This document shows, one piece after another, positions 2,791 through 57,480 of a DNA stretch of 64,000 bases. This DNA comes from Asterias amurensis (taxonomy: Eukaryota > Echinodermata > Asteroidea > Forcipulatida > Asteriidae). The first letter of the stretch is position 1; each line of letters begins with the position of its first letter. The stretch lies in NCBI RefSeq assembly GCF_032118995.1, contig NC_092660.1, positions 3,053,501-3,117,500 on the forward strand, read 5' to 3'. A program made the position numbers and the translations under genes. The notes under the pieces are model-generated. The model was not told where the DNA came from, ran no database searches, and saw nothing but the letters and a program-made list of their open reading frames with translations.

Positions 2791-5700
2791 TCACACATAT
2801 GGATCGACCAATTCCTCCTTCACGTCCTTGCGTCCACACTCCCCCAGAGCCTCTCCAAGGTTCTTGGCCTTCTGTCTCACATCTCCCCCTTCCTGATGTG
2901 ACCATGCCACCAGCATGCCGAAGATCTGGCCGTCCGTTCCGTAGTTATCTTCCTTAAAGCGATAGAGATCAGCAGTCTTGAAGCCGAGTAACACAGCTAC
3001 TTGTTCCCATTCTGGACCAAGCTTCTTGGCGACTTGCCTTAGATGTTTCTCACTCATCACATGATCATCTGCCACAGACAACAACATTAAAACAAACATG
3101 AAATGTCTGCTTTCAGTCTTTACAAGGGTGCGCTCGATTAGCTTCCCTGGGTCGACCCCGAGGTGCTCACTTACGGGTGAGCCCCTGACAGTGACAAGAG
3201 CTAATCGAACGATCACTCACCCTCTCGTGGTGACTTCATGCACCTGGGGCCAGCCCCAAGTGACCCACTGTACTGTACTGTAATGTATTGTTCTTTAACG
3301 TATAATACACTTTGTATTGAACATTGATCGGTACAGTTTAAAAAGAGATCAGCTTACAGGAACTGGTTATTCTCAAAGACCAGTATTTTCATTTAGTGTA
3401 TCACAACAGAAAAATATGCATAAAATATCATATCTTTAAAAATTTGGACTCAATTAGGTCAGCAAAGTTTCAAGAGAATAATAAAAGAAAAAAACACCAT
3501 TTAGATACCCCCAAAATTGGCTTCAGGCCTTAAGTCTTTTATACAATCAACAGCTCTCCATTGCTCGTTAAAAAGTAACTTTTATGCCAACAATTATTTT
3601 GAGTAATATCCAATTGTGTCCAGTGCCTTTATGAGTACACTTACCACAAATGGGAAACGGCTGAGAATCCGAGCCATCAAACATCTCCTTGAACCCAGAT
3701 GGATCAATCCTCACATCTGGTTGCCTCGGACACCGTATCCGCTGTTTTCCCAGACAATCGTCGATGGACAGGAAGTGAAGAGCGCCCTCTACATTGCAAG
3801 GGCACTTTACGCAGAAACGAAAATGGAAGCCGTGGAGCCAGGGGCACTTCTCGGGATTCAACATATCGCTGAGGAAGTCTTTAACCTTTGGGAGGATGAA
3901 ACCAAATGAGAACTTCCAATAATTATTTTAATAAAGCTCTGGTGCTTCTGTTCAGCAGAGGGTTGGTTTCGCATCCCGGTCATGACACTTGTGTCCCTGA
4001 GCAAGACACTTCACTATAATTGCTTCTCTCCACCCAGATGATTGTAATTGATTTAGCCAAGTAGTACATTAATTGTTGCACAGGCTGTATACTCCAAGGG
4101 AGCTGAGATGGTTTAAGAAATTGATTAAGGCCCAGTGACCAGGGGTAATAATGTTGGAAGTGCTTTGAGACGCCCTTCAGGTGTGATATAGTGCTATATA
4201 AAAACCAGTTATTATTGTTACTATTATTATTTCCAATTGCATCATGAGTTAGTTTTTACAGTCAGACTAGAGCTCTTCTTTGCTCAGCATCAGACAACAC
4301 CCGTCTTGCTTAAAATAAACCAATCGGCAAATCTATCCAATCTGCTGCCTACAAATCCTATTCTTTAGCCGCTCCAGGACTGTGCCTATTTTCAAGAAAG
4401 CACTTTAAGAATATCTTTATAGTTGGTTGCTGTAAGTTTCTATTCTGTTCATTTGCTGTATCATTTGCAAAGATGTTGTCTGTTTGCTAAAGCACTGCTG
4501 TCCAATATGAAAAGCACTATATAAAAACTGGTTATTATTATTTTTTTTTATTATTAGTGTTGTGTCTGCTCATCTCTGTCCGTTTGATCAGGGCTCATTT
4601 TCATAGAGCAGCTAATCACAAAAATGTGCTTAGCATGAGATTTCTTCCTTGATAGAAACAGGATTACAAACCAAATTTCCCTTTGTTGCATATTGCTTGT
4701 TACTGGTATTCAGTTGTTGTTTGCTTAATCCTGAAAATCACAAGGAAATATGGTTGGTAATAGTGTTTTTATCAAGGAAGAAACTTAATTCTAAGCAAAT
4801 TGTTGTGCTTAGCAGCTCTATGAAATTGGGCCCAGCAAGGTTATATACAGTTGATAAACTCTGTCCTACCTTGCGTGTGATGACACTTGATGGTGCAGAT
4901 TCTTTTTCAATTTTATGTGATGATTGTCGCTTGGATGTCTGTACGACAGCTGGTTTTCTAATGCACACCTGATACAAACAAGACAAATTTTGTGTTTATT
5001 CATAGGCCCCTCTAGCAGGTTGGACATAACAAAACGCTTGGGGTCAACTTCACAAAGATGGTCCTAACTTAAAGGCACTGGACACTACTGATAATAACTC
5101 AAAATAATTGTTGGCATAAAAACTTACTTGCTAACTAGCAATGGAGAGCTGTTGATAGTATAAAAAGTTGTGAGAAACGGCTCCCTCTGAAGTAACATAG
5201 GTTTTGAGAAAGAAGTAATTTTCCATTAAAATATTTGAATTAGATTTCGAGACCTCAGAATTAGATTTTGAGGTCCCGAAATTAAGCATTTGAAAGCACA
5301 CAACTTCATGTGACAAGAAAACAAATTCTTCCATGATTATCTCGCAACTTTGACGACCAATTGAGTTCAAATTTTCACAGGTGTGTTATTTTGTGCATAT
5401 GTTGAGATACACCAAGTGAGAAGACTGGTCTTTAAAAATTACCAAAGGTGTCCAGAGTCTTTAAGATTAGTCCTAAGACTCTTTAGGAGTTATTACAAAC
5501 TGAAGGCTAGTCCTAAGTTAGGACGAGGTAACTCATCCTATCAAATAAACTCACTTTGATGTAAGCCATCTTGAGAGATGACATCTTAATTTGGACTTCA
5601 TGATCAACATCGAAGAAGAAACTTATCCCTTTATGGATTAGTCTTGGTTCTTCATCTCCCTTTTCCTGTGTCCATCGAAGAACTCGCACAACAATACGAC

Positions 5701-8700
5701 GAAAAATACCCTCTATGGAAAACAAAATACAAGTAAAAAATTTTGAACTTCTGTAGTATAGCTTTGTGCATGGATAACAAAATGTTATCTCTATATGAAC
5801 AAATATATGTCGGTAGAAATCCCAAATAAAAAAAAAATTTAAAAAAAATAACCCAACTTTCATCTTTTTAACGAATGTGCAAGAGGATGCTTCTGATGTT
5901 TTAACACGTTTAAGCACAAGAGGTTTGAGCAACTGCCTGGAATAATTTTCTTGGGTTTCAAACTGGATTCACTCTGTGTCACCTATAAAGCTCAGTTGCC
6001 TTTGGAACCGTCTATCTCCTCAAATTCGTTTCTAGGAGTCCCTTGAAGTTTTCAAGAAACATCTTAAAACTTTCCTGTTCAATGGTTGACTGCAAAGACA
6101 AAACTGTTTTCCCATTAATAGTGCCTCTATTTGTTTGCTTATTGTACAGTTCCACAGGTAAAGCGCTTTGGTACCCTGTGTAAGAGCAGCCTATAAATGC
6201 CTGCTAATATTATTATTATTATTGTTTAGTGGTAAGACAACTGTCATTGAATGGCAGGGGCCATGGGTTCAAATCCCACCAGAATATAGAATGCCTGTGG
6301 ATAATTTTCCCTACAGAACCCGGGAGGCACCGAGTATACAGTGCCAAATAATAGTGTTAGGATGCATTTTCAAGTTTTGCTTTTTTTGCAACTTTTGGTT
6401 TTGTAGTCTCAGCCGTCATTGGTCGATCGGCTAAAAAGCTAGTGGGTCAGTACATACCGGGCAAGACATGCATGAAGTCAACATAGAAGACATGAGACGA
6501 AGAAGGATCAATGGTGTCCATCTTGTTAGATCTAGTATGGCTGAGGTGTAAATGCGTGAAATATGAACGCTCACTGGTTCCCTGCCTGGCCGGTTTCTCA
6601 TTTTCTCTTCCCTGAAATAGTAACGGAATGAACAGTCAATCTTCAAAAATACAAGTCCCCACTTCACATGCAACACATTCAAAACAAGAATTTTAGCGTG
6701 AAGTTTTGGTGATTGGTGATTCACAATGGTCCACACATTTCTGTTTTTGTAGAAATTTGGTTTCGAGTTTCAACTTCTGACCCCTTGTATGAATTGAAGG
6801 ATAGTAAACAAAAAAGTTGTCTGTCTCAAGTCTGCAGGATATGACTTTTCAAAGTGTAAACAGTAACTTTACATCACATATCACCCTGATGTCTCAGTTA
6901 CTGTATATCACATATCACCACGATGTCTCAGTTACTGTATATCACATATCACCACGATGTCTCAGTTATTGCATACCACGTATCACCACAATATATCAGT
7001 GTATGCATTACTAACCTGATTAGGTTGTGGATGTTGTGGACACATCATGTCTAAGTGACACAACAGGTCTACGACAGCTTGTTTTGCATCCCGGGTGGAG
7101 TCAGTGGTCCCTTCTTGCCCCTCACTGAGTTTATCTCTCAAGACGTGGTTAATCAGACATTCCTCCATTATACCTTCTTCTGTCAATCTCTTCCAAGATT
7201 TCAAAAGAGCTGGCGACTAAAAAAGACAAGATACATCATCTGTGGTCTAGTGGTAAAGACATCATCTCTGAAATGCATGGGGGCGGAACTAGAGTTTTAA
7301 ATTCTTACTCTGAAAGCAATATGCTATTCACAAAATGGTGTGTGGCAGAAACCGGAACAGTAATCTGTTCGCAATTATTTAATGCTGCCACAACACACAA
7401 TTTGCACTGACCGCGTGGTTAAGACATCAGAGCCTAATTTCATAGAGCTGCTTAACGGCCACTTTTGTACTTACTGACTGAGTTTTCATGTCATAGCGCT
7501 GCTAACCGTAAGCAAACGAAAAAACATGCTAACCTTCCAATGCTTACTGTATGAAAATGAATGACATAAACAATGCAAATCAATGGTGAAGGCGCAAGCT
7601 GGCTGGCTCATGTTCTTGCTAATCTGTGAAATACAACAGTGTATGGGTTTAAATACAAATAACAATCTTAGTTTATTAAAATTCTCACCTGTTCCGTTGG
7701 CTTTGAAATATCTACAAATCTCATGAGTACTTCAATCAACCAATTGAGATCCATAAAAATGACATCACTCAAAGCCGTCTCTACATTGTTAGGTTGGAAG
7801 TAAATGTGACCCCGGTCTCGATTGAGCTGTAGCATTAGCTTGAATTCTGCTTCTGTCATGTCCGTGAACGAATTCCCTGAGGCTGCTCTCAACTGCAACA
7901 ACAAACAAGAATGTGTGCTAAGCTATCGCTTGCAAACAAAATTGTTTTGTTTTATCCATACTGAACTTGATATTTGAAGGTACTGGACACCTTTGCTTTC
8001 ACATGCCTAATAAAAGGCTTCATGCCTGACGTCTTTTAATATTTGAGTTAGAAATTACCTCTTTCTCAAAAAACTACGGTACTTCAGAGGGACCTGTTTC
8101 TCACAATGTTTTATACTATCAACAGCTCTCTATTGCTCGAACAAATTGTTTTCATGGTAATCATTATTTGAGAAATTATCAATTGAGCTCAGTGCCTTCA
8201 AAACTCTCCAACAATATGCTTCTGGGGATCCCAAGCCCAATCCATACATAAACTTGCCAAGTCCTTCTAGAGTAATCGCCTGGACAATAATTGCACACAC
8301 ACACACACAGAAGGACACGGCAATCACTATTATGCCCCTTCGACTTGCTTCAGGGCATAAACAAAATAGTTTCTGAACAACTTTTGAATTATTAAACTCC
8401 TGGGAAATAAATAATGGCAGCTTGAAGAGTGGTGAAATAAACTTATTCGTTGGAACGTTATTCTAGCACATAGGGTGTCATGGCCGAGTGGTTTAGTAGA
8501 TCATCAATTTCAAGTTCTTGGGGTTAAGCCATCATCGTTGAGTGTGGGTTCAAATCTCGGTCATAAAACCTGTGTATTGGAGAAAGATACTTTACTATGA
8601 TTACTTCTCTTCACCCAGGGGTATAAATTGGTACCTGCAAGGGTAGAGGTTGATATTTTGTATGAAAAAGCCTTTGGAGCATCATGGCAGCCCAGGGCTG

Positions 8701-11700
8701 TAAACTCCCCAGGGAGTTGAGAAAGATTAAAGGTATGTTATTGGCCCAAATGACCAGGGCACTATTGTAAAGAGCATTGATACAGTCACTATAAAATGGG
8801 CTTATATACCAACTAGTTATTATTATCTATTATTATTATTTACCACTGCCGGGGACAGGATTGGCTGACTGGTATGTCGTACTTCATCAAACTGTAACCA
8901 TTTCAGAGGAATTTCCTGTCCAATAAGCTGCTCCGACTGCAGTAAATCCCAGACATGCTGCCTCAGTGCTGTAATCTGTAAAAGATAATAATAATAAGGC
9001 CAAATAAAAAAAAATACCAAATGATTGTCCGGATTTAAAAAAAAAAAGGAGGACGACGAGTTCCTTACTCTTTACTATTTACTATTTTTTTTTCAAGATG
9101 GCCGCTTAGTATTTCAAATCAAACAGGCCACCAATCCTTCAGTTTGAACCCATCGCAAACTTATTTGATATCTATTTGTTGCATGAGGACCTGTGTTAAC
9201 ACTATTCAACAGGGTCGGATTACACTAAAAAGATTCGCTGGTGTAGGGTTCACTAATATTGTTTATGAAACAGATGGGTACCTGCGAGGGTAGAGGTTGA
9301 TATTGTGTATGAAAAAGCATTTGGAGCGCTATGGTTGCCCAGGTTGTATACTCCCCAGAGAGCTGAGAAAAATTACAGGAATGTTAATGGCCCAATGACC
9401 AGGGCATTTATGTAAAGCGCAGTGAGAAATTATTGTAAAATGCGCTTTATAATAACTAGTTATGATTGTTATAATACCTCTGTGTTATTAAAATCTTCCA
9501 CACTGCTCTCAACGGCAAAGTATCGAGTTACAACATGGTGGCGATATGGAGCCTCATTAACAGCTGTCTTGATTCTTGCAAACTTCTTTTCAACCTGTTA
9601 AAGAACAGAGAGCTTTGTATTAGAGTTTCTGGGGGGAGGGTTTGTGACCTGGCACCAGGCCCAGTTTCATGGCTCTGCTTCCTGCCGACTTCTACGCATA
9701 CGACGACCATTCTCCGCTTACGTGCTAGAGCCAAATTTCTGTGCCAAGTAAGTTAAGAATGCCTAGTAACGTGGATTACACATGCACAGAATCAAAACAT
9801 TCCCTGGTAACCTGTGAAATATGTTTGCATAAGAGTGGAATTCCCTGCTCCTGTAAGAGCAAATTATTTGCTTAGAGTAGACAAAGCCATGAAATTGGGA
9901 CCTGATCTTCAAACATACACTTGAGCTTTGTTTCAGTCAAAGTAAAGATGCTTAATTTTTGGCTAGCTGCAGAGCAGTGCGAGGCTATAATACAAATTTC
10001 CATCAGCCGTCTGTCCGTCCGTCCGGCCGTCCGCGATAAGGGACTCCTGCACATGCTGTTTGTGATTCCAGATTTGATATGTTAGTAGCTGTAACTGTTT
10101 AAAGAACTGTGAGGTTCAAGTGTGTACCATGGTTAACTGAAGGTTGACTATTTTGACTCAAATCCAGGCTGGTTGACTATTGATTGACTACTGTGGTCGA
10201 CTATTTGGAACCAGCCACGAGCCTATGGTTTCTTCAGTTGTCCTGATAGCCTGTTCCATGCTAACATTTGTAAAGCACAGAGGGGAACCAGTGGCACTAT
10301 AGCGAAAACGCAGAAGGCAATGGAGTGTTGAATACTGTGGTACCGATGAATGACTAACGAGTCGCTCGAGTGAGTATGTCACTGCGCATGTACAATGCTG
10401 GTCAGTAGTTGACTAAATGTACGCACTCGAACATGCTCATTGTGTTTTCAAGCTGGTTTATAACTCACAAGTGACTGACGTTCAATCTCATTTTCCCCCA
10501 GGCTGTTCCTGTGGCTACCAATTAAGATGATCCGAGGTGATTTCTTTCCTGTTGATGGCGTTGAGGGCAGGCTCTTTGTGACTGTACGCATCCAGAAATC
10601 CAACAATTCTAACGTGGTAAGATCATCATACAGACTCTGAAAAACAAATTATTCACAATAGCTGTTTACTGAACTGGGGTGGACACTGGATTTCACAAAG
10701 AGTTAAGACTAGTCTTATCTCGAGTTAGGACAAGTTGCTTTGTCCTAACTTATAATCTCCTAGGAATAGTCCTAACCCAAGTCGACCCCTGCACACCTTT
10801 GGTTATTGTCAAAGACCAGGACTCTCACTTGGTGTATCCCAGCATATGCATCATAAGATTACAAATCTGTGAAAATTTGAGCTCAACTCGTCATCGAAGT
10901 TGCATGAAAATAATTAAGGAAAAAAAAACTTGTTGAAAAACATTCCAGTAATACAAGACTTTTTCTCCAGAAGATGATCAGAGCATACTGATCGAAACGT
11001 CTAGTTGAAACAACGGGTCGTTTCAGAACCACCACAACTCATTTAGAGATAGTCATTACATGGTGTTACCGCAAATCTTTACTATGCATTTCCACCAAGC
11101 AAAGTTCCAAATCCTACCAAACTAGCCTTACCTTTTCATCTGATTCATTGGGTCGTTTGTCTAAATCATGCATCAGATTGAAAACCAACAGGATGATTTC
11201 TGCGTTCAAGGGAACGAGCTGATGGTATTTAAAACAAAAAACAAAATATGATTAAATGTGGAATGCTATGATTAAAATAACCTAATATAGTTTTAAAAGT
11301 ACTTCAGATTAACTTTCAAACTACTATGGTGACGCTAACCCTTTAGTGTCTTTTGATATAGATCCTTGCATAAAAAATGTTTGGACCTAGTTCAAGAAGT
11401 GACGTGACGGAGCAATTAAGAGCACTGAATTCAAACTCTGGTGTTTCTGATCAGCTGAGTGTGGGTTCGAGTTCTAGTCATGACGCTTGTGTTCTTAAGC
11501 TCAAAATTTTCTGCAAATGGTTAATTAAATAAAACACCTTCCATGATTGGTTGTTTTGTTTCCGACAATTTGCGTAATACTGTTACAAACTGTGGCTTTC
11601 TGTTTCTGTATGGCATTTATGGCTTTCCATAGTTTTCAAACAACGATTGGCAAAAACTCGGCTGTGCCGTTGCAGGAGAAGGTTCTATTGATAAAAATAA

Positions 11701-13905
11701 AATGGCTTTATACCTGGCTGGCTAAGAAGAATCCATCATGGCCAGATATTTCCTTGATGTTTAGTCTGATGGCATCATTGTCAGAGTTTGTTTCAGATAT
11801 CTCTGGAAAAAATAAGATGAAGTTGTTGTGAGCCATTAAAAGGTTTTGAAACCTTTTGTAGATTTTTGGCCATGACATGAATCCCTAATCACTGTAAATG
11901 ATGATGTATGTAATGTAGTTTACATGTGGAAGTTTCAACTTTATTAGTCATCAAGTTTTTGGGTAAAAAAGTGAAAATGACAGAGCAATGTTGTTAGTAG
12001 AGTCACGTACAAAAACTAGTAAATGTACTGGTTAGTAAATACGCTGTACATGCCAATGTGTCACAAAAATTATTTTTGTGACACATTATTAATCATTTCT
12101 CCCCCAAAACAGCACCTCATCAAATAATATTTTAATGGAAGCTTTCAACCATCACTATCTTTAAACCGTGTAAGTTAATGTAGACCTAAGGACAGTGTGT
12201 TTGGTGTTGTACAAAAAGTACCCAACCCCTTTAAGATGCTACTCTCATCTTTCGCAGCAATATTTGCAAGTGTGTTGAGCAGTGTTTAACCCCTACGAAT
12301 TATTTGTTGCGAATTTCTGACTTCAACATTCACTTCGCATTCGCAGGAATTATGAACCGGGCTTTACAAATACCTTTATAACCAGCACAGATAGGCCAGG
12401 AAGTCCATGGATTATCAATCTTAGCTACATATGAAGGAATTCCTTTGGTACTGGTTTCCTTCCGATCATACCTGTTAAAAAAATGTTCAGAAGGATATTA
12501 AATTGTTACCGTACTCGCTGCTAAAATATAGGATTCAAACTGCCTCTAGCTACCACCTTAACAAGTACATCTTGCACCAAGACTAACTTTTGCCCTGTGA
12601 GTAACTTGATCAGACTCGTCTTTCCAACCCCTTCTTGGCCGACCACCATCAACTCAGTCCGTCGCACCGTCTTACTCCCACTCCTTAACGCTGTTCGATA
12701 CACCTTCTGGGCATCTGATCCCTGCGCAGCGATTTCGTAAGGTGTGTACCTGCAGGTATCTGAAGACAAATTATTAACGGAATTTAGTCTCTAGTTATTT
12801 TATAGGCTTAATATTTTATGTACAGACAGTGATGTTACATTGTACAAGTAATAATAATGATAATAATAATAGTATTAGTGGCTTCTTATATAACGCTCAT
12901 ATCCGTCACTCAGTGACACTCAAGGCGCTTTGAGATGTTATGAACAAGGTGCTGTGGCGCAATAAGCAGCCAATCAGAGTGTCCGGGAGTGCTCGGAGTC
13001 AGGGGTCTTGGGTTCAAATCCCAATGAGGAATATTGATTTTTCTCTCATCCTAAGGTTGTAATGATTTTTTTTTAAACATCAGAAATGCATGATTTTAGA
13101 ACTTCGTTGGTGATTGGTAAAATTGTCAAAGATTTTAAAAATTAAATGACTTCGAAAACAATGATTTCAAACATAATGGGAGACTTTTAGACGGTGCTTT
13201 TCCACAGTATTGCGCATGCTCAGAGTCAGACTTCTGACTTTTGCGCGTGCATACTCCACGTTAGTAGGCATTCTACGCTTTTAAGGCTATAAATTCGGCG
13301 CTTGCACGTAAGCAGGGAATAGTGATCATAAGCACAGAATTCGGCGGTAAGCAGAGCCATGAAATTGGGCCCTGTTTGTTTACTTGAGTGGAAATTTATA
13401 AACAAACAAACAAACAAACAAACAAATTACCATTGTTAAATACATCACCGTAGCAACCACATAAGTCCAGTGTGACCCACACAGGTTTCTTAAAATCCAC
13501 CGCTCCTTTACAATCAGCGAGCTTCTCAACTTGGCCCAGCTGCTTCACACAAACGACACCATTGTGATCAAACTCATAATCTACAAAGATGTTTTCATCC
13601 CCTTGCTTCGCTAAGGGCATCGCCCATGTTTTGTCTTTATACGATAACTCTTCAGTATAGATTTGCGGGAGTGACTTTGGATCCCGTTGGTCTGGATTTT
13701 GGTTGGTGAATCCAATCCGCGGCACACCGGTCCATCGAGATGCTGTCTTTTTGAAGAACAACGAGATTGTCTCATCGGTTTGGATCGGGGTTTGACTGAA
13801 TACAATTCCATTATCGTAAGTGTCTGGACTGCGGCTAGCTTTCGTGCCTGAGGCGCCAACTCTGATATTTGTGCCGTGGCATGAGGAATGAAATTGCCAT
13901 ACCAT
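2791..13905 (-). CDS. NHR-Roc-COR-Death domain protein (ROCO family), 15 coding exons
   Basis: Complete 890-residue model. Exons: 13431-13905, 12588-12759, 12374-12471, 11714-11802, 11132-11218, 10469-10636, 9478-9594, 8844-8975, 7689-7892, 7016-7216, 6458-6611, 5555-5712, 4870-4968, 3645-3885, 2791-3068. All joins keep frame and use GT-AG sites. Residues 1-158 form a Neuralized homology repeat (QFHSSCHGTNI, DNGIVFSQTPI, WTGVPRIGFT). Residues about 190-400 are a Roc domain with P-loop GQEGVGKTSL at 199-208 and switch-I-like TKGI at 224-227. The G3 site reads EISGHDGF and the G4 site GSHRN, both off consensus. Residues about 403-760 are a COR domain (FMDLNWLIEVL, YVDFMHVLPEGIFRRIVVRVL split over two exons). 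Residues 800-890 are a Death domain (GPEWEQVAVLLGF, GMLVAWSHQ). No LRR, ankyrin or kinase. The ATG at 13905 is preceded in frame by a stop. Likely an intracellular signalling scaffold; its ligand and partners are unknown. Confidence 0.9.
3310..3630. repeat. GGCACTGGACAC MITE, diverged fragment
   Basis: Contains AATATGCATAAAATA, a GGACTCAATT-GGTC segment and CAGCTCTCCATTGCTCGTTA. These are pieces of the family seen whole at 5069-5464 and 37859-38206. It lies in the last intron of the NHR-ROCO-Death gene. Confidence 0.6.
3950..4230 (+). mobile_element. SINE (V-SINE-like layout), 5'-truncated
   Basis: Starts within the tRNA-derived head (CGCATCCCGGTCATGAC) and continues through the conserved body (GAGCAAGACACTTCACTAT, GGCCCAGTGACCAGGGGTAA) to a GCTATATAAAAACCAGTTATTATTGTTA tail. 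The same body occurs at 8473-8843, 9275-9477, 15180-15310, 26025-26334 and 48850-49065. The tRNA-type A box is missing here. Confidence 0.7.
4345..4556 (+). mobile_element. LINE-like 3' end fragment
   Basis: TCTTTAGCCGCTCCAGGACT, a later TTTCAAGAAAGCACTTTAA and a tail of AGCACTATATAAAAACTGG plus TTATTATTA. The layout resembles the last codons and tail of CR1/jockey-type LINEs (xLxxFKxxLK). Very short and old; subfamily not determined. Confidence 0.45.
4585..4840. mobile_element. Palindromic MITE (ATGAAATTGGGCCC family)
   Basis: Left end GGGCTCATTTTCATAGAGCAGCT is mirrored by right end AGCAGCTCTATGAAATTGGGCCC (inverted repeat, imperfect). The inner arms TTTCTTCCTTGAT and ATCAAGGAAGAAA also pair. 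Related ends occur at 7430-7520, 9655-9905, 13200-13378, 26930-27105 and 34320-34350. The exon at 4870-4968 of the NHR-ROCO-Death gene starts 30 bp beyond it. Confidence 0.7.
5046..5540. mobile_element. Older element interrupted by a TTAA MITE
   Basis: Outer pieces 5046-5068 and 5465-5540 (GGTCCTAAC ... GATTAGTCCTAAGACTC, ending CTAAGTTAGGACGAGG) match the uninterrupted copy at 10689-10790 (TTAAGACTAGTCTTATCTCG, TAGTCCTAACCC). The 5069-5464 MITE sits inside at a TTAA, giving the order of insertion. Confidence 0.6.
5069..5464. mobile_element. GGCACTGGACAC MITE, near full length (396 bp)
   Basis: Begins TTAAAGGCACTGGACACT and ends with GTGTCCAGAGTCTTTAA, an imperfect terminal inverted repeat with TTAA at both edges. 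Inner arms such as GAGACCTCAGAATTAG and TTTTGAGGTCCCG also pair. No coding capacity. Other copies or pieces: 3310-3630, 7970-8212, 10791-10935, 19918-20040, 20919-21035, 28178-28400, 31439-31755, 37859-38206, 42735-42955. It is the commonest element in the window. Confidence 0.8.
5985..6225 (+). mobile_element. LINE 3' end fragment (CR1/jockey-like)
   Basis: Translates in pieces to a WNRLSPQIR-like segment followed by SLEVFKKHLKTFLFNG. This is the typical C-terminal ending of reverse transcriptases of CR1/jockey-type LINEs (established family feature). A GTAAAGCGCTTTGGTACCC 3' region and a (TTA)n tail follow. Intronic in the NHR-ROCO-Death gene. Confidence 0.65.
6225..6350 (+). mobile_element. 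tRNA-derived SINE, second family
   Basis: A-box-like TTTAGTGGTAAGAC and B-box-like GGGTTCAAATCCCACC are followed by a body with TACAGAACCCGGGAGG and CGAGTATACAGTGC. The same body occurs at 23715-23845, 30150-30245, 34585-34740 (inverted) and near 63460-63570. It is not a functional tRNA: no acceptor stem could be drawn. Confidence 0.65.
6868..7000. repeat. 34-bp tandem repeat, about 4 copies
   Basis: Units of GATGTCTCAGTTACTGTATA followed by TCACATATCACCAC repeat with few changes, running up to 16 bp from the exon at 7016-7216. Confidence 0.85.
7430..7520. repeat. Half of an ATGAAATTGGGCCC-family palindrome
   Basis: GAGCCTAATTTCATAGAGCT and GCTAACCGTAAGCA resemble the ends of the element at 4585-4840. 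Partial and diverged. Confidence 0.45.
7970..8212. mobile_element. GGCACTGGACAC MITE, truncated
   Basis: Opens AAGGTACTGGACACCTTTG, runs through AGATGCC-like and CTTCAGAGGGACCTGTTTCT segments and closes GAGCTCAGTGCCTTCAAA. Central part deleted compared with 5069-5464. Intronic. Confidence 0.65.
8289..8306. repeat. (CA)9 microsatellite
   Basis: Uninterrupted AC dinucleotide repeat inside an intron of the NHR-ROCO-Death gene. Confidence 0.9.
8473..8843 (+). mobile_element. Full-length tRNA-derived SINE abutting a splice donor
   Basis: A box TGGCCGAGTGGTTTAG and B box GGGTTCAAATCTCGG are typical of tRNA-Ser/Leu-like heads. The conserved body follows (TACCTGCAAGGGTAGAGG, CCCAGGGAGTTGAGAAA, AATGACCAGGGC) and then a TTATTATTATT tail. 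The tail touches exon 8844-8975 of the minus-strand NHR-ROCO-Death gene, so in gene sense the 5' splice site reads GTG|GTAAATAATAATAA. The element is antisense to the gene. Confidence 0.8.
9275..9477 (+). mobile_element. SINE, 5'-truncated, abutting a splice donor
   Basis: Same body as 8473-8843 (GGGTACCTGCGAGGGTAGAG, ATGACCAGGGCATTTATG) with a TATGATTGTTATAATAC end that is immediately followed by exon 9478-9594 of the minus-strand gene. Antisense to the gene, as for the neighbouring SINE. Confidence 0.75.
9655..9905. mobile_element. Palindromic MITE (ATGAAATTGGGCCC family)
   Basis: CAGGCCCAGTTTCATGGCTC at the left pairs with GCCATGAAATTGGGACCTG at the right. Inner sequence is AT-rich with no coding capacity. 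Intronic in the NHR-ROCO-Death gene. Confidence 0.65.
10689..10935. mobile_element. GTCCTAAC element followed by a GGCACTGGACAC fragment
   Basis: 10689-10790 holds AGACTAGTCTTATCTCGAG and GGAATAGTCCTAACCC, an imperfect inverted repeat. At 10791 it passes into a 3'-truncated piece of the GGCACTGGACAC family (TTGTCAAAGACCAGGACTCT, AATTTGAGCTCAACTCGTC). Confidence 0.55.
11400..11500 (+). mobile_element. SINE head fragment
   Basis: GTGACGGAGCAATTAAGAGC, CTGGTGTTTCTGATCAGC and GTGTGGGTTCGAGTTCTAG match the tRNA-derived head of the SINE at 15315-15622. Body missing. Confidence 0.6.
11845..12242. repeat. CAGAGCAATG-family element, longest copy
   Basis: Runs from TTTTTGGCCATGACATGAAT through AAAATGACAGAGCAATG to TTGTACAAAAAGTACCC and CCCTTTAA. 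Matches 22860-23300 over most of its length and 2536-2692 at its start. No coding capacity. Confidence 0.6.
12280..12366. repeat. GAACCGGGCTT MITE, right half
   Basis: TATTTGTTGCGAATTTCTGA and CGCAGGAATTATGAACCGGG match the right half of the short palindromic element that is complete at 27832-28000. Confidence 0.55.
12845..13035 (+). mobile_element. (TAA)n tract and SINE-like fragments
   Basis: AATAATGATAATAATAATAG is followed by AACGCTCATATCCGTC and a tRNA-like stretch with GGTGCTGTGGCGCAAT and GGGTTCAAATCCCAATG. It appears to be an inverted SINE 3' end beside another tRNA-like head. Confidence 0.45.
13200..13378. repeat. ATGAAATTGGGCCC-family fragment
   Basis: GGTAAGCAGAGCCATGAAAT plus TGGGCCCTG at the right end and repeated GCGCATGC/GCGCGTGC segments on the left. 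No coding potential. Confidence 0.45.
13401..13426. repeat. (AAAC)n microsatellite next to exon 1
   Basis: About six AAAC units directly beyond the 5' splice site of NHR-ROCO-Death exon 1 (exon edge 13431). In gene sense the donor reads AATG|GTAATTTGTTTG. Confidence 0.85.
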
Positions 13906-16304: not shown

Positions 16305-18529
16305 CTAATCCAGGAGTGACATGATTTCGCCGAGAGGTTTCCGTCTAAGGTCTGGTACCATAGCGTCTGGGGATGGGAAGCCAACAGGTAACAACACCAG
16401 GACCTTTTCACTGACTGGCCTGTTGAGTAGATCCCGAAGGCGTGGCCCAGCGTTCATGGGCGTGGTTGTAACAGTCACCAACCCAGCATTCTGAAGAAAA
16501 TAAAAAAAAATAAAAATCAGAATCTAACCGAGGAATGAAAGTTATCTTTCTGATGACTAATTTGTTTAAATTATGGTTATAATTAGCTACATACATGGTC
16601 AGTGCTTTATTATGCTTGGCGCGCCCGCTGGATGGAACAATTGAGACACATTTTGCCCTGCACACAGCACTACCCAACGCTTACTGAATGGACTGATGCA
16701 CTCATGAACACATGCATACACTGCATGTGAGTGTAAGTGCGAGTACTAAATAATAGTACAAAGTGTTGACCTGAGATACTCGGTAACAAAAGAAGTTCAC
16801 ATAATGTAGGGACTTCAAACACTACTTTAATATAAATGGCTTCACACTTCTTCTTTTTTTCACAGAACAAAGAAATCTCCACAGAGTGCCAATGTAAATG
16901 TTGTGTTAAGTTTGCCTGTCTGAAACCAAAGTTTATTTGGTGAGGCTCCTTATCTATTTGGTGAGGCGCAACTCTGGCCCACCTGTCTGAAACAGTTGTT
17001 ATGGGCAAACATAAGTGGATTGTCATGGTTCATCATTATACCTACATTTAATGCAGCAAGTAAGAAACCAGTAGCAATAGATGCACTAATCTCTTGATAG
17101 TAGAACGTCTGCCTCTCTCCATCTTCACTTATCCCATACAGCTTCTTGAAGACGACGATAACGTAAGGGGCCTCAGTCAGATAAGGCTTACTCCATGTCA
17201 ATTTGAGTTTTGAGAGGTCTCCTAGCCATTGACTGCTCATCCTTTTCTCATAGTTGATTCTCTCCTCGTCTTCGATGATGTTACGCATCTCTAGCTTGAT
17301 GTCTGGATTACTGACCACGGCAAAGGTCCATGGTTGCATGTGGGCCCCACTTGGACTTGTGCCTGTAAACAAAAATAGGAGTAAAACAAAGCTTATTACA
17401 TAGTTCCTTCTGGCTCTGGTGATATACTGCCTAATCTCCACATATTGGGATGAATGCAGGTGACTGGGACTAGGAAGGTCCCAATTGATCAATACAAAAG
17501 ACCAAGCAATCTATGCAAAAGACTGATCAGTCAATACAAAAGACCGATCGATCAATTCAAAAGACAGATTGATCAATGCAAAAGACCGAGCGACCGATGA
17601 CAAAGATCGATCGATAAACTGAAGACTGACCGATCAATTCAAAATACCGATTGATCAATGCAAAAGACAGATCAATCAATTCAAAAGACCAGTCGATTGA
17701 TTCCAAAGACCGATCGAGCGATGCAAAAGGACCATCAATTGATTCAAAAGACAAATCATTCAATCAATGATTGATTCAAAGAATCAATCGATGGATTTAA
17801 TAATCCAATATTGATTGATGCAAAAGACCTATCTGTCATTTCAACAAAAGATTCAATCGATCGTTTCAACAGATGTACCGATACAAAAGATCGATCAATA
17901 AATTCAAAAGTCTAATTGATCGGTTAAAAAGACTTATTGATCGATGTAAAAGAACGATTGGTTGCAATAGACAAAACAGTTTGTTTATGCCCAATAATGC
18001 ACTTTTAGATCAAGTGAAACAGCGCCCCAGTTACTTGTTGGTCAAATGCATTGCATATAAATAAAGTCAGTGCATGTTTATATTTTTAATATGAGTTTCC
18101 GAGAATATTATTCCATAGAATTAAAATATGAACATAGAGAAAGAACACACAGACAAAGTTCTAACCTGCAGTTCTTATGCAGTTCTCGATGACTTCCAAC
18201 GGCACTTGCTTATTACAGATATCTCTTACCGAGCGCCTCTTGTTCATCTCGCCGTAGAAACAACCTGATCGACGGACCATTTCCTCCCCGGGATACGCTT
18301 TGAACGAGTACGGTATGTGTGGAGCATCGTCGTCATGCTGGGATGTGCCAGGGGTTGGGCAACTCTCAACCGTTGAATCTTTCCTGCCAGTTCGGTCTTC
18401 ACTTCTGTTATGATATGGTCGTTTGCTGTTGAAGGCTACACCGAGGAGGAAACATACCCCAAACAAGATGATTTGGAGCCAATACGTTGTAAAAAATGGT
18501 GCGCTATAATCAAACGAAGTCATGGTCAT
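16305..18529 (-). CDS. Iodotyrosine deiodinase (IYD), complete
   Basis: Exons 18166-18529, 17046-17362 and 16305-16490 give 288 residues; the human protein is 289. Residues 12-33 are a single N-terminal membrane anchor and the rest is a nitroreductase-fold FMN domain. FMN-contact motif RRSVR is at 98-102 and SGAHMQPW at 126-133. The three residues that clasp iodotyrosine in the human enzyme (Glu157, Tyr161, Lys182) align with E155, Y159 and K180. The C-terminal part carries [19 protein letters not shown]. Exon 2 uses the GTAGGT donor (AALN|NAGLV), the only one that keeps the family sequence. Family role: reductive removal of iodide from mono- and diiodotyrosine using FMN. Iodotyrosine recycling in this animal is inferred. 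The first Met gives the best length; Met3 is an alternative. Confidence 0.95.
17490..17965. repeat. GATC-rich short tandem repeat array in IYD intron 1
   Basis: Degenerate units of about 18-22 bp built on CAAAAGACCGATCGATCAAT recur over some 475 bp. GATC and CGATCG occur many times. Local frames in it are repeats without family features. Confidence 0.85.
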
Positions 18530-18961
18530 TAGACAGCGACGACTAATTTTTTAGCTAAAAGTTTGTAGCGCATGAATTTTGCATAGTGCGCCCTCCTTAG
18601 TCCGTACTGTGTGTTGACTGGTACCCGACTGGTCCCGTCTTTATCCGCAAGGATAACACAGATTTTGGTCTTATACACATACACATACACATACACATCG
18701 GTTTTAACTGCAAATCTCCAGGACCATGAGCTGCGTAAATTAATGCTAGTTGAAAGGTGATTATGCACGTCAGCTGAAGGCAGATCTCTGGCGTATAAAA
18801 TTCACGAGCCTGAAAGGGATCCCATGTGTGCTGTCAATAGGCATGTGGTGTTCGTGTACTTCCGGTTCGTTGTTGTTGTGTTGAAGATTCATTCATAAAT
18901 TAATCATTGACATCACTCGTCGTATTTTCCTCTACGTTTTTGTTTTACATACAGCATCCAG
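18530..18961. promoter_or_regulatory. Shared upstream region of divergent IYD and RNR R2
   Basis: IYD begins at 18529 on the minus strand; the R2 transcript probably starts in this interval on the plus strand. A TATA-like TATAAAA is at 18794-18800 and a strong donor CATCCAG|GTACGT at 18961/18962 could end a non-coding R2 exon whose acceptor is CTTCTACTTTCAG at about 19715. The (ACACAT)4 run at 18676-18700 is simple repeat. Start sites are inferred. Confidence 0.4.
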
Positions 18962-19745: not shown

Positions 19746-22700
19746 ATGGAAAGAAAAGCAGGCGACACTCCATCTTTTAAAAGAGACATCTTGTGTACAG
19801 CTTCAGATGCTGAGGTAATGCTCCAAAATATACAGTCAGTTTTAATTGCATGGTTTGGATGAAAGGGATTTAGTAAATTTGCGAACGTTCATGGGGTTAT
19901 CCTCTTGGGGAGGAGTGTGTTGGACACATTTGGTAATTGTCAAAGGCTAGTATTCTCACTTGGTGTATCCCAAAAATTTGCATAAAATAAGAAAAACTTT
20001 GAGAATTTTGCAAGAGAATAATGAAAGAAAAAGCACACTAGTTGCAAAAATGGGAAGGCACTATATACTAAACTCCACAGCAGTTCGGCCCATCGGAGAA
20101 TACCCGAGCGAGAATGACCTTATGACGTCATTTTGCATATGCTTGCATCCTTTAGACATGAAAATATTAACAACCAGGTCCTAGTGGTTAGTCCACTCTT
20201 ATGTTACAACTCCCCAACCTGCTGCTACAAATGTACTTGAATAAAGAGGTCTGAAGCAGTGCTTGCATCTTTTAAACATGAAAATATTAACAACCAGGTC
20301 CCAGTGGTTAGTCCACTCTTCTGTAACAACTCCCCAAACCTGCTGCTACAAATGTACTTGAATATAGAGGTCTGAAGCAGTACTGATCTTTTAGACATGA
20401 AAATATTAACAACCAGGTCCCAGTGGTTAGTCCACTCTTATGTAACAACTCCCCAAACCTGCTTCTACAAATGTACTTTAATATAGAGGTCTGAAGCAGT
20501 ACTGATTTTTTAGACATGAAAATATTAACAACCAGGTCCTAGTGGTTAGTCCACTCTTATGTAACAACTCCCCAAACCTGCTGCTACAAATGTACTTGAA
20601 TAAAGAGGTCTGAAGCAGTGCTTGCATCTTTTAAACATGAAAATATAAACAACCAGGTCCCAGTGGTTAGTCCACTCTTATGTAACAACTCCCCAAACCT
20701 GCTGCTACAAATGTACTTGAATAAAGAGGTCTGAAGCAGTACTTGCATCTTTTAGACATGAAATCATTAACAACCAGGTCCTAGTGGTTAGTCCACTCTT
20801 ATGTAACAACTCCCCAAACCTGCTGCGTGGGGGATCGTCGCGAACCGTGCCGAAATGTTCCGAGAGCACACGAAAAGTTCCGAACCGCTGTAGAGGTTAG
20901 TTTTTAGTGCCTTCCGCAAAAATGTGTGTGCTTTCAGATGCCTTATAAAGGGCTTTTATCATTTTGAGTGAGACGTTACCTCCATCTCAATAACTACTTT
21001 ACGTCAGAGGGAGACGTTTCTCATCAATGTTCTTTATTTTTCCTCTTGCAGCTCCAGTCAGATTTCCCATCCAAGAAGATCTGCCCTTCCTCATTTCTTA
21101 CTACGATCAGTGAAGGGAGCCAAGATGGAGTGAACACCCTTCCCAGTCCCGTCACCGAATCTCAAGATGATGAGCAACATCTTCCCTCATTTCAGATGTC
21201 GTTGGACCTGTTTTCACCACAAATAGATCCCACTGCCATGTCGCAAGAGATCAACCCCTTTTCTGCGCCCACGCAAGGGAGGTTGACACCTGACTCCGAC
21301 AGTGAGGTACCAACCCTTTCGGAGGACAATGACGAGGAGGATAGTCCTTTACTCTCTCAGATGTCATACATTCAGGAGGAGGATGAGCGTCAACTCCTCA
21401 GGACCTCATCAAAAACAGAAAGTCTCTCCTCGAGAAATCAGTCGAAATCGAATCCTCATACGACCTCGGATGAACCCACAGACAAACTCACAGAAGTGAA
21501 TACAGAAAAAAATCTTTCAAAAGATGTCGACAGGAAATCTCATTCAGACAAGGATGAACCACTTCTCAGACCCAACCCAAAACGTTTTGTCATTTTGCCG
21601 ATCCAGTACCCTGAAATTTGGAAGTTCTACAAGAAAGCTCAGGGTTAGTCTTCTATTAATTGAATTTCCGATAGGTAACAATAATGCTCTTTCCGCAAAT
21701 TTTGCTTCATTGTGTCAAGTCAATCAAAGGTTCCAATTTGATATAAAAATCTACTCAAAAAAACTTAACAATAATAATAATAAACAATAAACAACAATTA
21801 TTAGGCGGTTGTTTCTAAGTGCACATTCAGTATTATACTCATGGTAAGTGGGACTAGGTTTGAATTAATGGTTTTGATGGAATGGTTAATGAGGTGCTGT
21901 GGCACACAATAAGCTGACAATCAAACCAGGAAGACCGGGTTCTGTTCCGGCGTTACACAAGACACAGGACCATCGACTTTCATCCCATCCAAAGGACGAA
22001 GCATTATAGTTAAATGCTCGCTTAAGGACCTACCTGTCATCTTAGTCACGACCGGGATTCGAACCCACACTCTGCTGATCAGAAACACCAGAGCTTGAGT
22101 GCAATGCTCTTAACCGCTAAGCCACGACACTCCAGAAAAAAACCTAAGGAGAAAATCTTGAATCCTTACAGCTCCCAAACCTCCACAGGTGTATTCTGGA
22201 AGGTGTCTGACTTTGTTGGGTATGGCAATGAGTGCAAGTCAACATTTTGTTTCTTCAGATTCCTAACACTTTGGTGTCGAGTTACCATAGAGTGGAGTAT
22301 TTTGATGGATTCAGGAGGGTCTCTTTCCGAAGACACTTTTGGTTTAAACTTATTAGATCCCTGTTTCAAAATGTAGGAATTAATAACACTTATTGTGTGA
22401 GGTTTTTATTTTGCAGCCTCTTTTTGGACATGTGAGGAAGTAGATCTTGGAAAGGACATGGAACACTGGAGGAGTCTTAAGGTATTCCCATTAATTTTTA
22501 TATTTTGTTTCAGTTCAGACATCAGCTAAAACCTTTTTTTTTCTCAGTCTGCTTTTTTTCTGTTGAGTAGGGGGTAGGCTATGTGTTCCTTTGTCCCCTA
22601 GAGCCTGAGCGTGGGAGTGATTTTTTAGAGTGATTCTTGTTTTTGTTATTTTGAAACTAAGGATTCCTTTAAGGAATGCTGCAATTTTTTACAAATATTT

Positions 22701-25700
22701 TTTTGAGTGCAAAAGAAGTGAATTTGACGAGCACATAATTTTCATTGACTATTTCACAATGAATGTTTCGCAAGAGTTGAGGATATTGCAACTTGAGCGG
22801 ATTGTTTGTTACAACTTTGGAACTACCTATTCATGGGGAATGAAGATGTATTCAATATAATTTACCTGTAGAAGTTTCAGCGTCATTAGCCGTCAAGTTT
22901 GTGAAAATCACAGAGCAATGTTTTCAGGAGAGTCGCACCTTGTAAATGCCCAAATAGTTTTACTTTTAAAATTATTTTTAAAGAGGATTTGAAACTTTGC
23001 ATGATGAAAATACGATATAGAAAGGTTTGCGGTTACACCATGTAATGACTATCTCTAGTGAGTTGGGGTGGTTCTGAAAAGAACTGTTGGTTTCAATCAA
23101 CTCGAGAAAAAAATAAAAAAATAAAAAATAAAAAATTATTTTTGTGACATTGTTTTACTCATTTATCAAAAACTACAGCACCTCAGCAAGTAATATTCTA
23201 AGTGAAGCTTTTTACTATCATTATCTTTAAACTATATGAGTTCAATGTAAATCTGTGGACATTGTGGTTGGTGTCGCACAAAAAGTACCCAAACCCTTTA
23301 AAGTATGATGCAGGCATATTAAAGCCCAGTTCATACTCTGCGAATGTGATGCGAAGTCACAGGGCTATTTTCGCAGCCCATCTTTCGCAGCAATTGAACA
23401 CAGTTCAGAATTATTTGTTGTGAATTTGTGACGTCCAAATTTGTATCACATTTCGCAGGAAGTACGAACCGGGCTTTAGGATTCTAACTTCTAAGAAGTA
23501 ATGTTGTATGTTTTCAGCCTTCGGAGCAGCACTTCATCAAGCACATCCTTGCCTTCTTTGCAGCAAGTGACGGCATCGTCAATGAGAACCTAGCTGAAAG
23601 GTTCAGCCAAGAAGTTCAGATACCTGAAGCCAGATGTTTTTATGGCTTCCAGATGGCAATGGAGGCAAGTAAACAATACCATCTATATTAACTCTTCAAG
23701 ACAGTGAATTGCATATTTACATGTTTGCCTGTGATATTTTTCACACAGCTCGGGAAAGTACTGCGTATACAGTGCTAACAGACATCTGTGCATGTGTATA
23801 TTTTTTCACAGGATTCGGGAAAGTACTGAGTATACAGTTAAAATTATTATTATTATAATGGAATAAAAGAGTGGCAGCAAGTTTTCAAATGGCCGTTTAA
23901 AACAGGCAGGGTCGTGGCTGTGGATAAAGGCCTCGACCCTGCAGTCTTTTAAAAGGCCTTTTAAGACCGAGTCACTTCTCTTTTATTCCCATTCATAAAT
24001 GGCCATAAAAAGCTAAACAAATGATACAACCATAGACAATCTGTGACAATCTGTTTCCTTATCGATTTTTCAGAGTTTGTACGATTTCAAAAACTGTTTA
24101 AAATTGTGTTTTGTGCGCGCTTGGTTGGTTTTATGCACATATTGCGTTGCATTCTACGTAGGTAAATCAGCATATATGAAGCCAGCTGGCCCCCCTCCAG
24201 CTATGTCTTTATCAGCCGTTTAAACACCCCTGTGAGGTGTTCTCCACCAATAGGAATAGCGAAACTGTCTGGGGTATTTATGAATACTATTTGACCATGA
24301 TGTAGTGCCATGCTGATTGCTTTGTTGTTTATTTGTTTTGTTTGTTTGTTTACAGAACATTCACTCTGAGATGTATAGTTTGCTCATCGACAGTTACATA
24401 CAGGACCACTCTGAGAAGATGCGCTTGTTCAACGCTATAGAAACAAGTGAGTATTTTGTAGATAAAACCGTCTTCAGAAAGATATCATGTAGTGTCATAA
24501 CACACTTTAATTTTGAATGAAATAAAAGTTTTTTTAAAACAAAGCTTAAACAAGAGGAAACTGTGAACTTGCTGCTTTGTCTTTATGCAATCCACGCAAC
24601 AAACAACTGCAGTGCGATGTGTTAATGTAAAGATTCCTTTTGCCCATGATACACTGAAAGTGGCCTCACCTTTGCTAACAGTAGAGGGTGCACTGTATTG
24701 ACGTGAATTTCCTGTATTTTAATATAAGACTATCCACTACTTACTAGGTGGTGTAGGTGGCTTGTGCGTAAACCGCTTAGCTCTCCCCAATGTGGCCCTG
24801 GTTTGAATCTCGGCTAAGGAAATGATGTTTGTGCTTTGGTTTTTCTCCAGGTGCTCCGGTTTTCTTCCCAATGGAAATATCAATCTCTTTCGATCTCTGG
24901 CCAGGCTCTGTGTTCATAGTAGGTTTGATGGGACAGGCTGCCTAAGGCTCCTTTTCATGCCTTCTGTTCAAACACGTAGTTGTGTCTTTCGCTATTCAGC
25001 TTCTCAGATGCTAGTATACAAATATTGGCTGCTTCGAGGTGATCCCGGTGCGCTGAGGGAAAATGAAACAGTCCGGAGATCACCCAGGGAGTGGAAGTTT
25101 TAACCATAGCACGAGTTAAAGCAGTCAATATTTGTTTTATAACACCCCATTCCCAACAGACTATTTATCATCTTCGTACACGTAATGTTTGTGTGCGCGT
25201 TTCAGATACACAGATGCACAACTGATAGGGTTCAAGGTTGGTAAAGAGACGTCTGGGTACTGCACGCCTGACGACTTTTCACATCGCAAACGACGCACTG
25301 TCACAAGGCCGCCGTCTAGTAAAACTAAGACATATCATGTGACGCGCTCTAAACCAATGAAAAGGCAGAGTATTTGTATGGGGTGTTATAATAAAGATGA
25401 TTGCTTCCCAAATGAAAATTTTCTGTTTTCCTCAATTGATTTTGACAGTGCCGTGCATCAAGAAGAAGGCAGATTGGGCTTTGAAATGGATTCAGTCGAA
25501 GGAAGCTTCTTTTGCAGAGAGACTTGTGGCCTTTACAGCGGTTGAGGGGATATTTTTCTCTGGGTCGTTTGCTGCCATCTTCTGGTTGAAAAAGAGGTAG
25601 GCCCAAAACTAAGTTACCTGTTCATGTTTGTTGCGTTGTCCTTTAGCCTTCGAGAAAAACTCTGCTAGGGTCGAACTGTCAGACCATTACCTTGTTCTAT

Positions 25701-39370: not shown

Positions 39371-40033
39371 TTACTCTTGGTAAACGGCATAAAGACTAAC
39401 CACAGCAAACAGAGTTGGGTTCTCATACACGACGGACACAAAACCATCCTTTGCCGAATCCCACAGACATCTCCCCACGTCTTGCACTTCCTGACCGCTC
39501 TTCTGTCCCAAGCAGACGACACAGACGAGTTTGTAGCGGTCGAACCCGAGAAGTTTCACTCGCTGCTTGACAGAATCGCTGATGTTTCGCGCCTTCGCGG
39601 CCATCAAGACCGGGCTGTCGTACCTGACCTTCTCCAAGTCCTGAAGAACATTCTCGATGACTTGTTTGACCGGTTTATCTCTGAATGGCCTCTCTGGGTC
39701 CATCTTGTAGGTGTTCGGTCGAGTTGTCCCCCGGCCAGTCGCCGAGCCGTCCGTACCCCAACCCCGTTCGTCCACGGAGAGCACGCGGCGAGAGAAGGAT
39801 ATTTTCCGGTTGCGGTAGTCCTGGTCATTGCCGAAGCTCTGCTTACGGGTCCGATAATCACCATCCATGCTCCCCACCGAGACGTTCCTGGGCCTGCCGG
39901 TGCTACCAAAGGACACCTTACGGGAGCGGGTCTCTCCATGGTCGTGGCCCGGTGGAAGCCCGGTGGCTATATCCATCGGTGCCGTATACACCGAGGTTTT
40001 CCGCCGTGGTTTTTGTTCGACTTGCTCGGTCAT
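39371..40033 (-). CDS. Tctex1-type dynein light chain, DYNLT4 (TCTEX1D4)-like
   Basis: Single open frame of 220 residues from the first in-frame Met at 40033; human DYNLT4 is 221 residues and also intronless in its coding part. The C-terminal half (about 108-220) is a Tctex1 domain: RYKLVCVVCLGQKSGQ, RCLWDSAKDGF and the family-typical end LFAVVSLYAVYQE. The N-terminal half is basic and Ser-rich, with three similar motifs: RSRKVSFGS (36-44), YRTRKQSFGN (60-69) and YRNRKISFSR (73-82). KVSF at 39-42 fits the RVxF docking motif for protein phosphatase 1; human TCTEX1D4 has a comparable RVSF. Family role: cargo or ciliary adaptor of dynein. The frame runs open upstream of Met1 without another ATG. 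The long plus-strand frame over the same bases is its shadow. Confidence 0.9.
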   Translation of the reverse strand: MTEQVEQKPRRKTSVYTAPMDIATGLPPGHDHGETRSRKVSFGSTGRPRNVSVGSMDGDYRTRKQSFGNDQDYRNRKISFSRRVLSVDERGWGTDGSATGRGTTRPNTYKMDPERPFRDKPVKQVIENVLQDLEKVRYDSPVLMAAKARNISDSVKQRVKLLGFDRYKLVCVVCLGQKSGQEVQDVGRCLWDSAKDGFVSVVYENPTLFAVVSLYAVYQE

Positions 40034-40100
40034 GATGAAGTATTTTCTGGTCAAACTTGGCGAGTGCCGCCAGCTGGTTGTCGGGTTATGGAAGCCCGTC

Positions 40101-40220
40101 ACTTGGACGCTCTTTGTTTGATCAGGGTTTGCCAAGCGAGCACTTGTTCAAATTCCAAGTGTTTTCTGATAGATTTTGCTGGGGTCAGGTACGTAAGGCG
40201 ACACCGTGTGTTTCCTGCCA
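40101..40220 (-). other. Spliced-looking segment upstream of the DYNLT4-like ORF
   Basis: CATTTTTTGGCAG at about 40220 is a strong acceptor on the minus strand. The following frame reads LTYLTPAKSIRKHLEFEQ... to a TGA near 40101, some 70 bp before the DYNLT4 start. It is either the 5' UTR of DYNLT4 or the C-terminal exon of another gene; I cannot decide. Confidence 0.3.
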
Positions 40221-55830: not shown

Positions 55831-56611
55831 CCATGGGGCTGCAATTTGGACGTTCAGCTGTAGTACGCTGACAAAATGGCTACAAGTGAACTTGTTTTTG
55901 ACAGACTTTGATTAAAAACAAAGTTTATGAGTGTTAAAAACACTAGATATGTATCAACCAAAAGTACAGAGAAAAACACTTGACGTATTCACAAAAACGC
56001 CACATTTTTGTTTACAGTTTAAAGTACGGCGAATAGTGATGCTTTTTCACTACATGCTTGCCAATAAATGATAACAAAGATGACATTGGATTAATATAAC
56101 TTCTACCATCCTAAAATAGAACCAACTATGACCATAACGACCAAACATTTCAACACGGCTAAGATTGAACAAGATCTAAAGTATTTGATTTACTTTGTTG
56201 CAGACCACTATAACTAATGATGAAGTAGAACATCGGATGTTATAACAACGTCAGCTGAGACGCATGTTCACAAAAGCATAGGGGGTAAAAAAGAATCAAT
56301 TTAGGATACAACTGTTTCCAAAATTGATGTTTTAAAAGGCTTTTACTAGGCTTGCATTTACCATTTTTGGCCTGGCAGAAAGAGGAAACAAATAAAACAA
56401 CTTGTGATGTTTAATTCCCCCTCAAGCTATAATGTACTAAAATGAGGGACTATGAAACAATTTAGGGCACAACTGTTTCCTAAATTGCTGTGTTGTTATG
56501 AATACTTTGAATCTGGTTACATTTACACATTGTTGGCCTTGCAGATAGGAAAAAGTGACTAATTAAAACTAGGAACAAATTTCTTTGCAACTTAGGAACA
56601 ACAAGGGACAG

Positions 56612-57232: not shown

Positions 57233-57480
57233 CTTTTTCTGTAAACAGCATCACTGGTGAAAAGACTATGGCTTGTGTGCAATAATAACCCGATGCCAGA
57301 TATCTGTGTGCTGTAAATTTACCTCTAAATTGAGACAAATTGATCGCTTTGTAACCTTGAAATGAACTTTGACCTTCCATTTAGTGATTTCAATTTTGGC
57401 TGACCAATTTATGACCTCTGACTTAAAATGGAGATTGAGTTGAACTAAAGTAACAATAGCTAGTACAGATTGAATTCTGT

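Follow-up and report, generated by a model that had tools for sequence, protein, structure and literature searches.

Does the minus strand of this 64-kb stretch of the Asterias amurensis genome (the window, meaning the whole of the DNA analysed) encode a single ROCO protein that joins a Neuralized (NHR) domain to Roc, COR and Death domains, and if so, what would such a protein do? The exon model rebuilt from the sequence comprises 15 exons on the minus strand, from a start codon at 13905 to a stop codon ending at 2791, and the joined reading frame of 2673 bases specifies 890 residues and a stop. All 14 introns, with lengths of 116–984 bases, have GT-AG borders, and the exon phases agree at all 14 junctions. 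Read in the two remaining frames, the joined exons contain 45 and 73 stop codons. At the base composition of the exons the chance of 890 codons without a stop is ~8e-24, a value to be taken as a guide and not as a test because the exons were chosen for their openness. An AATAAA poly(A) signal is located at 2753–2758 on the same strand, ~30 bases past the stop codon. There is no second copy of the gene within the window, where tblastn matches outside the exons are weak (E = 0.29 or worse). The initial annotation, which described fifteen exons joining in frame to 890 residues, is borne out with the same start and stop, and by these sequence features the locus appears to be an animal gene that is real and intact.

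The first and last exons encode the two terminal domains. Exon 1 (13431–13905) covers residues 1–158, with the NHR domain at residues 5–151 recognized by the Pfam Neuralized model with E = 3.5e-23 in the 890-residue protein and 1.1e-24 when the exon is scanned alone. In the PDB, the NHR exon matches structures of "Protein neuralized" (2yue/4kg0, E = 1.6e-13), compared to E = 0.12 for the NHR structure of KIAA1787, which we take to be NEURL4. Exon 15 (2791–3068) contains the Death domain (residues 806–885) and the stop codon; the Pfam match has E = 2.7e-10 in the complete protein and 1.9e-11 in the exon alone. The solved structures closest to the Death domain are CRADD (7.9e-7), PIDD (1.2e-5) and RIPK1 (1.6e-5), followed in the PDB comparison by THO complex subunit 1 (2.3e-5). 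An AlphaFold2 model of the Death exon (mean pLDDT 59.6) was of insufficient quality for fold searching. Neuralized, Roc and Death each score above the Pfam curated cut-off and occur in that order along the 890 residues, while no Pfam match to a RING finger, a protein kinase or ankyrin repeats was found in the same 890 residues. The protein thus differs from the Neuralized E3 ligases, in which NHR is accompanied by RING. Searches of viral contigs with six short peptide patterns per query detected relatives of neither the complete protein nor the NHR exon, and PADLOC gave no match for the NHR exon, the Death exon or the Roc region. In the part of the literature that concerns SPRY-like domains of eukaryotic immunity, Neuralized is described as one of these domains, coupled to Death-like domains among others (passages of PMC8195603).

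The Roc domain extends over six exons. Exon 2 (12588–12759), placed by its splice phase, contains a linker and the Roc P-loop GQEGVGKT, and the Pfam Roc match covers residues 195–292. The score of this match in the complete protein is 28.4 bits (E = 2.1e-6) versus a cut-off of 27, and increases to 34 bits (E = 4e-8) when the Roc region is scanned alone. Exon 3 (12374–12471) carries the G2 motif STKGI, so that both G1 and G2 are recovered by the motif scan. The exon model and the profile alignment described below assign exon 4 (11714–11802), exon 5 (11132–11218), exon 6 (10469–10636) and exon 7 (9478–9594) to Roc, with the end of the domain in exon 7; the motif scan places EISG at the G3 position in exon 4, where DxxG would be expected, and GSHRN at the G4 position in exon 6.

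Evidence for COR is less direct. No match to the Pfam COR-A and COR-B models was listed at E values up to 10, with HMMER filters that drop most matches above ~0.1, and COR was not found by phmmer against the PDB. Because these searches failed, we built a profile from bacterial Roco proteins. Its seed (L001) is a bacterial plasmid Roco annotated as COR domain-containing, with clear COR-A and COR-B. The seed was found by tblastn, in which the 20 records listed, out of 85, all had matches at chance level (E = 0.7 or worse). Relatives of L001 were present in at least 535 of 581 stretches, from which the best 80 loci were kept; 83 open reading frames matched the L001 Roc-COR, and after removal of three with a short or over-long span the profile consists of 80 sequences including L001. 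The Roc-COR module of the Asterias protein can be aligned along its length with these bacterial sequences, and the proteins differ in what surrounds it, L001 having LRR before the module and a terminal EAD11.

The combined Roc and COR regions match the bacterial profile with E = 2.4e-13 in an alignment that starts at the P-loop and reaches into COR-A. A match of 1.3e-11 is already obtained with Roc alone, and the bulk of the combined signal therefore comes from Roc. The contribution of COR was assessed by comparisons with shuffled sequences. In global alignment, residues 403–720 alone give E = 2.9e-5, while the best-scoring of 200 shuffles gives 0.082. The local score of Roc and COR together is 105.4 compared to 91.8 for the best of 200 sequences in which Roc was followed by a shuffled COR. 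The COR-B-like residues 600–720 give a local E value of 0.0047 versus 0.055 for the best of 100 shuffles. The separation is small for residues 403–720 in local alignment, where E = 0.0045 is barely ahead of the best of 100 shuffles (0.011) and the reversed COR scores 0.046. For residues 445–585 E is 0.048 and one of 100 shuffles performed better (0.032), and residues 445–632 yield 0.91 in global and 0.06 in local alignment.

The start of the COR-like region falls in exon 8 (8844–8975), which contains IGQEIPLKW, and the region continues through the COR-A-like exon 9 (7689–7892), which contains YFQPN..LSDVIFMDLNWL, both assigned by the profile alignment. By the exon model and motif comparison, exon 10 (7016–7216) is COR-A-like and exon 11 (6458–6611), with YVDFMHVLP, leads from COR-A-like to COR-B-like sequence. 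Exon 12 (5555–5712) is COR-B-like by the exon model and the profile alignment, and includes EGIFRRIVVRVLRW..LIHKGISFFF. Inspection by eye shows IGQEIPLKW, YFQ..LSDVIFMDLNWL, VLPEGIFRRIVVRV and LIHKGISFF to be colinear with the bacterial consensus. It is likely that a COR domain follows Roc, a reading for which its position and the colinear motifs count for more than any single piece. The proposed order of NHR, Roc, COR and Death accordingly stands for the three domains recognized by Pfam and is less certain for COR, which Pfam does not detect and the bacterial profile does.

The motifs of the Roc domain bear on whether it acts as a switch. DxxG, the G3 motif of switch II, is absent from residues 185–450 of the Asterias protein, whereas a related pattern, [WFL]Dx[GA]G, occurs somewhere in the Roc-COR region of 79 of the 80 bacterial sequences. 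At the G4 position only 43 of the 80 bacterial sequences match [NTSG][KH]xD, and the sections of a review that deal with these motifs note that G4–G5 vary among Roc domains (PMC6337361); for these reasons we draw nothing from GSHRN. Because the switch-II motif is missing, Roc is probably a dimer module, nucleotide-stabilised or weakly hydrolysing, and not a GTPase that switches fast. Of the two roles first proposed for Roc-COR, to dimerise or to switch, the latter is weakened.

Between COR and Death, a linker rich in basic residues and serine (exon 13 of the exon model, 4870–4968) is followed by exon 14 (3645–3885, residues 719–798), a segment with several cysteines and no Pfam match. By eye, exon 14 resembles the cysteine tail found behind COR-B in bacterial Rocos, where the tail motif occurs in 58 of the 80 sequences, 56 of them long enough for comparison; animal Rocos also carry such tails. 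Quantitative comparisons did not support this relationship, as hmmsearch gave E = 150 while 1000 shuffles reached values down to 0.08, and hhalign gave 0.011 with 3 of 100 shuffles scoring better. Exon 14 has two unrelated weak matches in the PDB (0.53 and 0.84), and its AlphaFold2 model, with a mean pLDDT of 40, did not reach a quality suited to fold comparison.

The architecture depends on the NHR exon being part of the same gene as Roc. It is conceivable that two neighbouring units were misjoined, exon 1 being a separate small NHR gene and the Roc-COR-Death gene starting from another exon. Exon 1 does encode an NHR domain in full and supplies its own ATG, and a further exon upstream of it is possible. 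On the other hand, the NHR exon fits exon 2 in phase, and the Roc frame itself offers no start codon that could serve. The frame of exon 2, when extended upstream, runs into a stop at 12793 before any ATG appears, and the sole methionine among residues 150–215 is residue 196, within the Roc core; translation of the Roc part must therefore begin in a coding exon further upstream. Neither AATAAA nor ATTAAA occurs in the first intron, which is only weak evidence against two separate genes, as eight such words lie in the other introns of the gene. NHR also seems to have been published for proteins of such make-up (as mentioned in PMC5094078). A misjoined pair is thus very unlikely in our judgement, and the NHR exon fits as part of the Roc-COR-Death gene, the complete chain being a predicted gene model.

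Several other features were observed in the window. Upstream of the ROCO gene and on the same strand lies a Nitroreductase-family exon (16953–17510, minus strand, Pfam E = 5.7e-6), which together with an open reading frame at 18164–18550 presumably represents iodotyrosine deiodinase. The latter reading frame has no Pfam match. A ribonucleotide reductase small-subunit gene is located at 20968–26088 on the plus strand, with a strong match in the open reading frame 25705–26088 (Pfam ribonucleotide reductase small subunit, 1.4e-30; PDB subunit M2 B, 9.1e-39) and a weak match to the same family at 20968–21645 (Pfam, 0.19). An XPC-binding domain spread over two open reading frames on the plus strand (34295–35104, Pfam 9.8e-15 and 0.0035) probably marks a RAD23 gene, the name being assigned from this domain. 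A 258-residue open frame at 39374–40147 on the minus strand belongs to the Tctex-1 family (Pfam 6.7e-23). Tandem repeats include 5.7 copies of a 121-base unit at 20142–20826 (94 percent match), a long array of ~78 copies of a 58-base unit at 50551–55000 (75 percent match) containing open frames as long as 219 residues, and a pair of arrays ~1.9 kb apart, at 56601–58451 and 60332–60871, both built on a closely similar 57-base unit.

How does the predicted protein compare with known ROCO proteins? DAPK1, which carries ankyrin repeats, has a kinase in front and no NHR, whereas the Asterias protein has no match to kinase or ankyrin. The two share Roc-COR followed by Death (as outlined in PMC6337361). 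Novel Gene 3 of sea anemones (actiniarians) is described as consisting of a kinase, SH3, a central Roc/COR, and C-terminal Death and TIR domains (relevant passage of PMC5094078). It resembles the Asterias protein in the succession of Roc/COR and Death, and differs in having the kinase and SH3 where the Asterias protein has NHR and in its terminal TIR. According to the same passage, the most similar combination elsewhere has "neuralized" in place of kinase and SH3 and is found in the centipede Strigamia maritima and the oyster Crassostrea gigas, the presence of Roc/COR in these proteins being implied by the wording and not spelled out; a less similar combination without kinase and SH3 is mentioned for the sea urchin Strongylocentrotus purpuratus (PMC5094078). 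A figure legend from 2022 lists NHR, ROC, COR, Death and TIR for COR- and TIR-containing proteins of Aplysia (Fig. 6 of PMC9334734), and this legend does not establish that one protein has all five domains. The likeness of the centipede, oyster and Aplysia proteins to the Asterias protein thus consists of neuralized or NHR with Death and, by implication, Roc/COR; they carry a TIR that was not found here, and the comparison is one of text and legend in which the domain order is not given.

The view that NHR in front of Roc-COR was not a known arrangement is probably wrong, given the neuralized-containing relatives mentioned in 2016 (PMC5094078) and the Aplysia legend of 2022 (PMC9334734). The combination of NHR, Roc/COR and Death, with TIR, is very probably already in print for protostomes. 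A TIR-less form is described in neither of these two accounts. The exact NHR-Roc-COR-Death arrangement without TIR was not met among the top-listed results of literature searches in an open-licence library, and a term search of PMC2575513 and PMC8917759 returned nothing on Roc or Neuralized. In the Asterias gene no TIR follows Death, as the stop codon comes next and the 2.8 kb downstream stretch contains an 80-residue open reading frame with no Pfam match. All six frames of the 64-kb window contained no match to a single TIR box-1 pattern, which a divergent TIR could escape. As no TIR was found, we consider the protein a TIR-less variant of the NHR-Roc/COR-Death-TIR proteins.

The protein is most likely a Death-domain signalling scaffold, as judged from its predicted domains, and the scaffold originally proposed for it stands to this extent; its steps of partner binding, dimerization and output are inferred. 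In this model NHR would receive the input by binding a protein partner and might also pack on Roc, and Roc-COR would keep the protein as a dimer. COR is the dimer interface of a bacterial Roco, with a contribution from Roc (structural sections of PMC6337361), and Roc would probably be a nucleotide-stabilised or weakly hydrolysing dimer module. Engagement of the input would let the paired Death domains nucleate a Death-domain assembly with partners of the CRADD, PIDD or RIPK1 type, which would drive a caspase or NF-kB type output. For this model as a whole, with NHR as input, a Roc-COR dimer, assembly through Death, and Roc as a dimer module and not a fast switch, we consider the chances evenly balanced. 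Published TIR-bearing proteins of similar make-up are placed with innate immunity (passages in PMC5094078 and PMC9334734). A Death-domain output need not mean immunity, however, because DAPK1 also combines Roc-COR with Death.

Two other roles have to be weighed against a signalling scaffold. The protein could be mainly a brake on TIR-bearing NHR-Roc-COR-Death-TIR paralogues, pairing with them via COR and Death and unable to recruit TIR partners. This would be consistent with the mention of TIR-bearing neuralized proteins in centipede and oyster (PMC5094078), with NHR and Death in the legend for the Aplysia proteins (PMC9334734), and with a gene whose poly(A) signal directly follows the Death exon, in a window with no match to the TIR box-1 pattern in six frames; we nevertheless regard such a role as unlikely. 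Alternatively, the protein could be a DAPK1-like regulator of cell death that lost the kinase and ankyrin repeats, gained NHR, and has no immune role. Roc-COR with a C-terminal Death domain is the arrangement of DAPK1, and the Death-bearing Roco group is tied to DAPK1 in the review cited above (PMC6337361, in part), but the 890 residues retain no Pfam match to kinase or ankyrin, and the NHR-bearing proteins in print carry TIR (as worded in PMC5094078). We see little prospect for such a derivation.

A Death-domain scaffold in which NHR and Roc are joined invites comparison with NEURL4 and LRRK2. The region of NEURL4 with the third and fourth NHR domains is reported to bind LRRK2 via ROC and partly via WD40, and LRRK2 mutants impaired in GTP binding or hydrolysis bind NEURL4 more strongly (the portion of PMC4565672 on this interaction). 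In both cases an NHR region would meet a ROC domain, although NEURL4, with six NHR domains, and LRRK2 are two separate proteins while the Asterias protein is one chain. On a domain-fusion argument, interacting partners would be expected to occur fused, as NHR and Roc do in this single chain, and by analogy the fusion may be a built-in version of the NEURL4–LRRK2 contact. The parallel applies at the family level only, because the Asterias NHR is nearer to Protein neuralized (1.6e-13) than to KIAA1787 (0.12). A more specific scheme by the same analogy, in which NHR would keep a Roc-COR dimer deficient in switch II closed, and its removal by a ligand would free the Death domains, as a one-chain counterpart of NEURL4 and LRRK2, seems doubtful to us.

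With this locus, a group of invertebrate ROCO proteins to which the published passages refer only in passing gains a predicted gene structure that is complete. The fusion of NHR and ROC in the Asterias protein, beside the published binding of NEURL4 to the ROC domain of LRRK2, suggests a testable general contact between both domain families. If NHR and Roc do form a built-in regulatory pair, NHR–ROC binding would be an old and general mechanism of ROCO control, with bearing on LRRK2.
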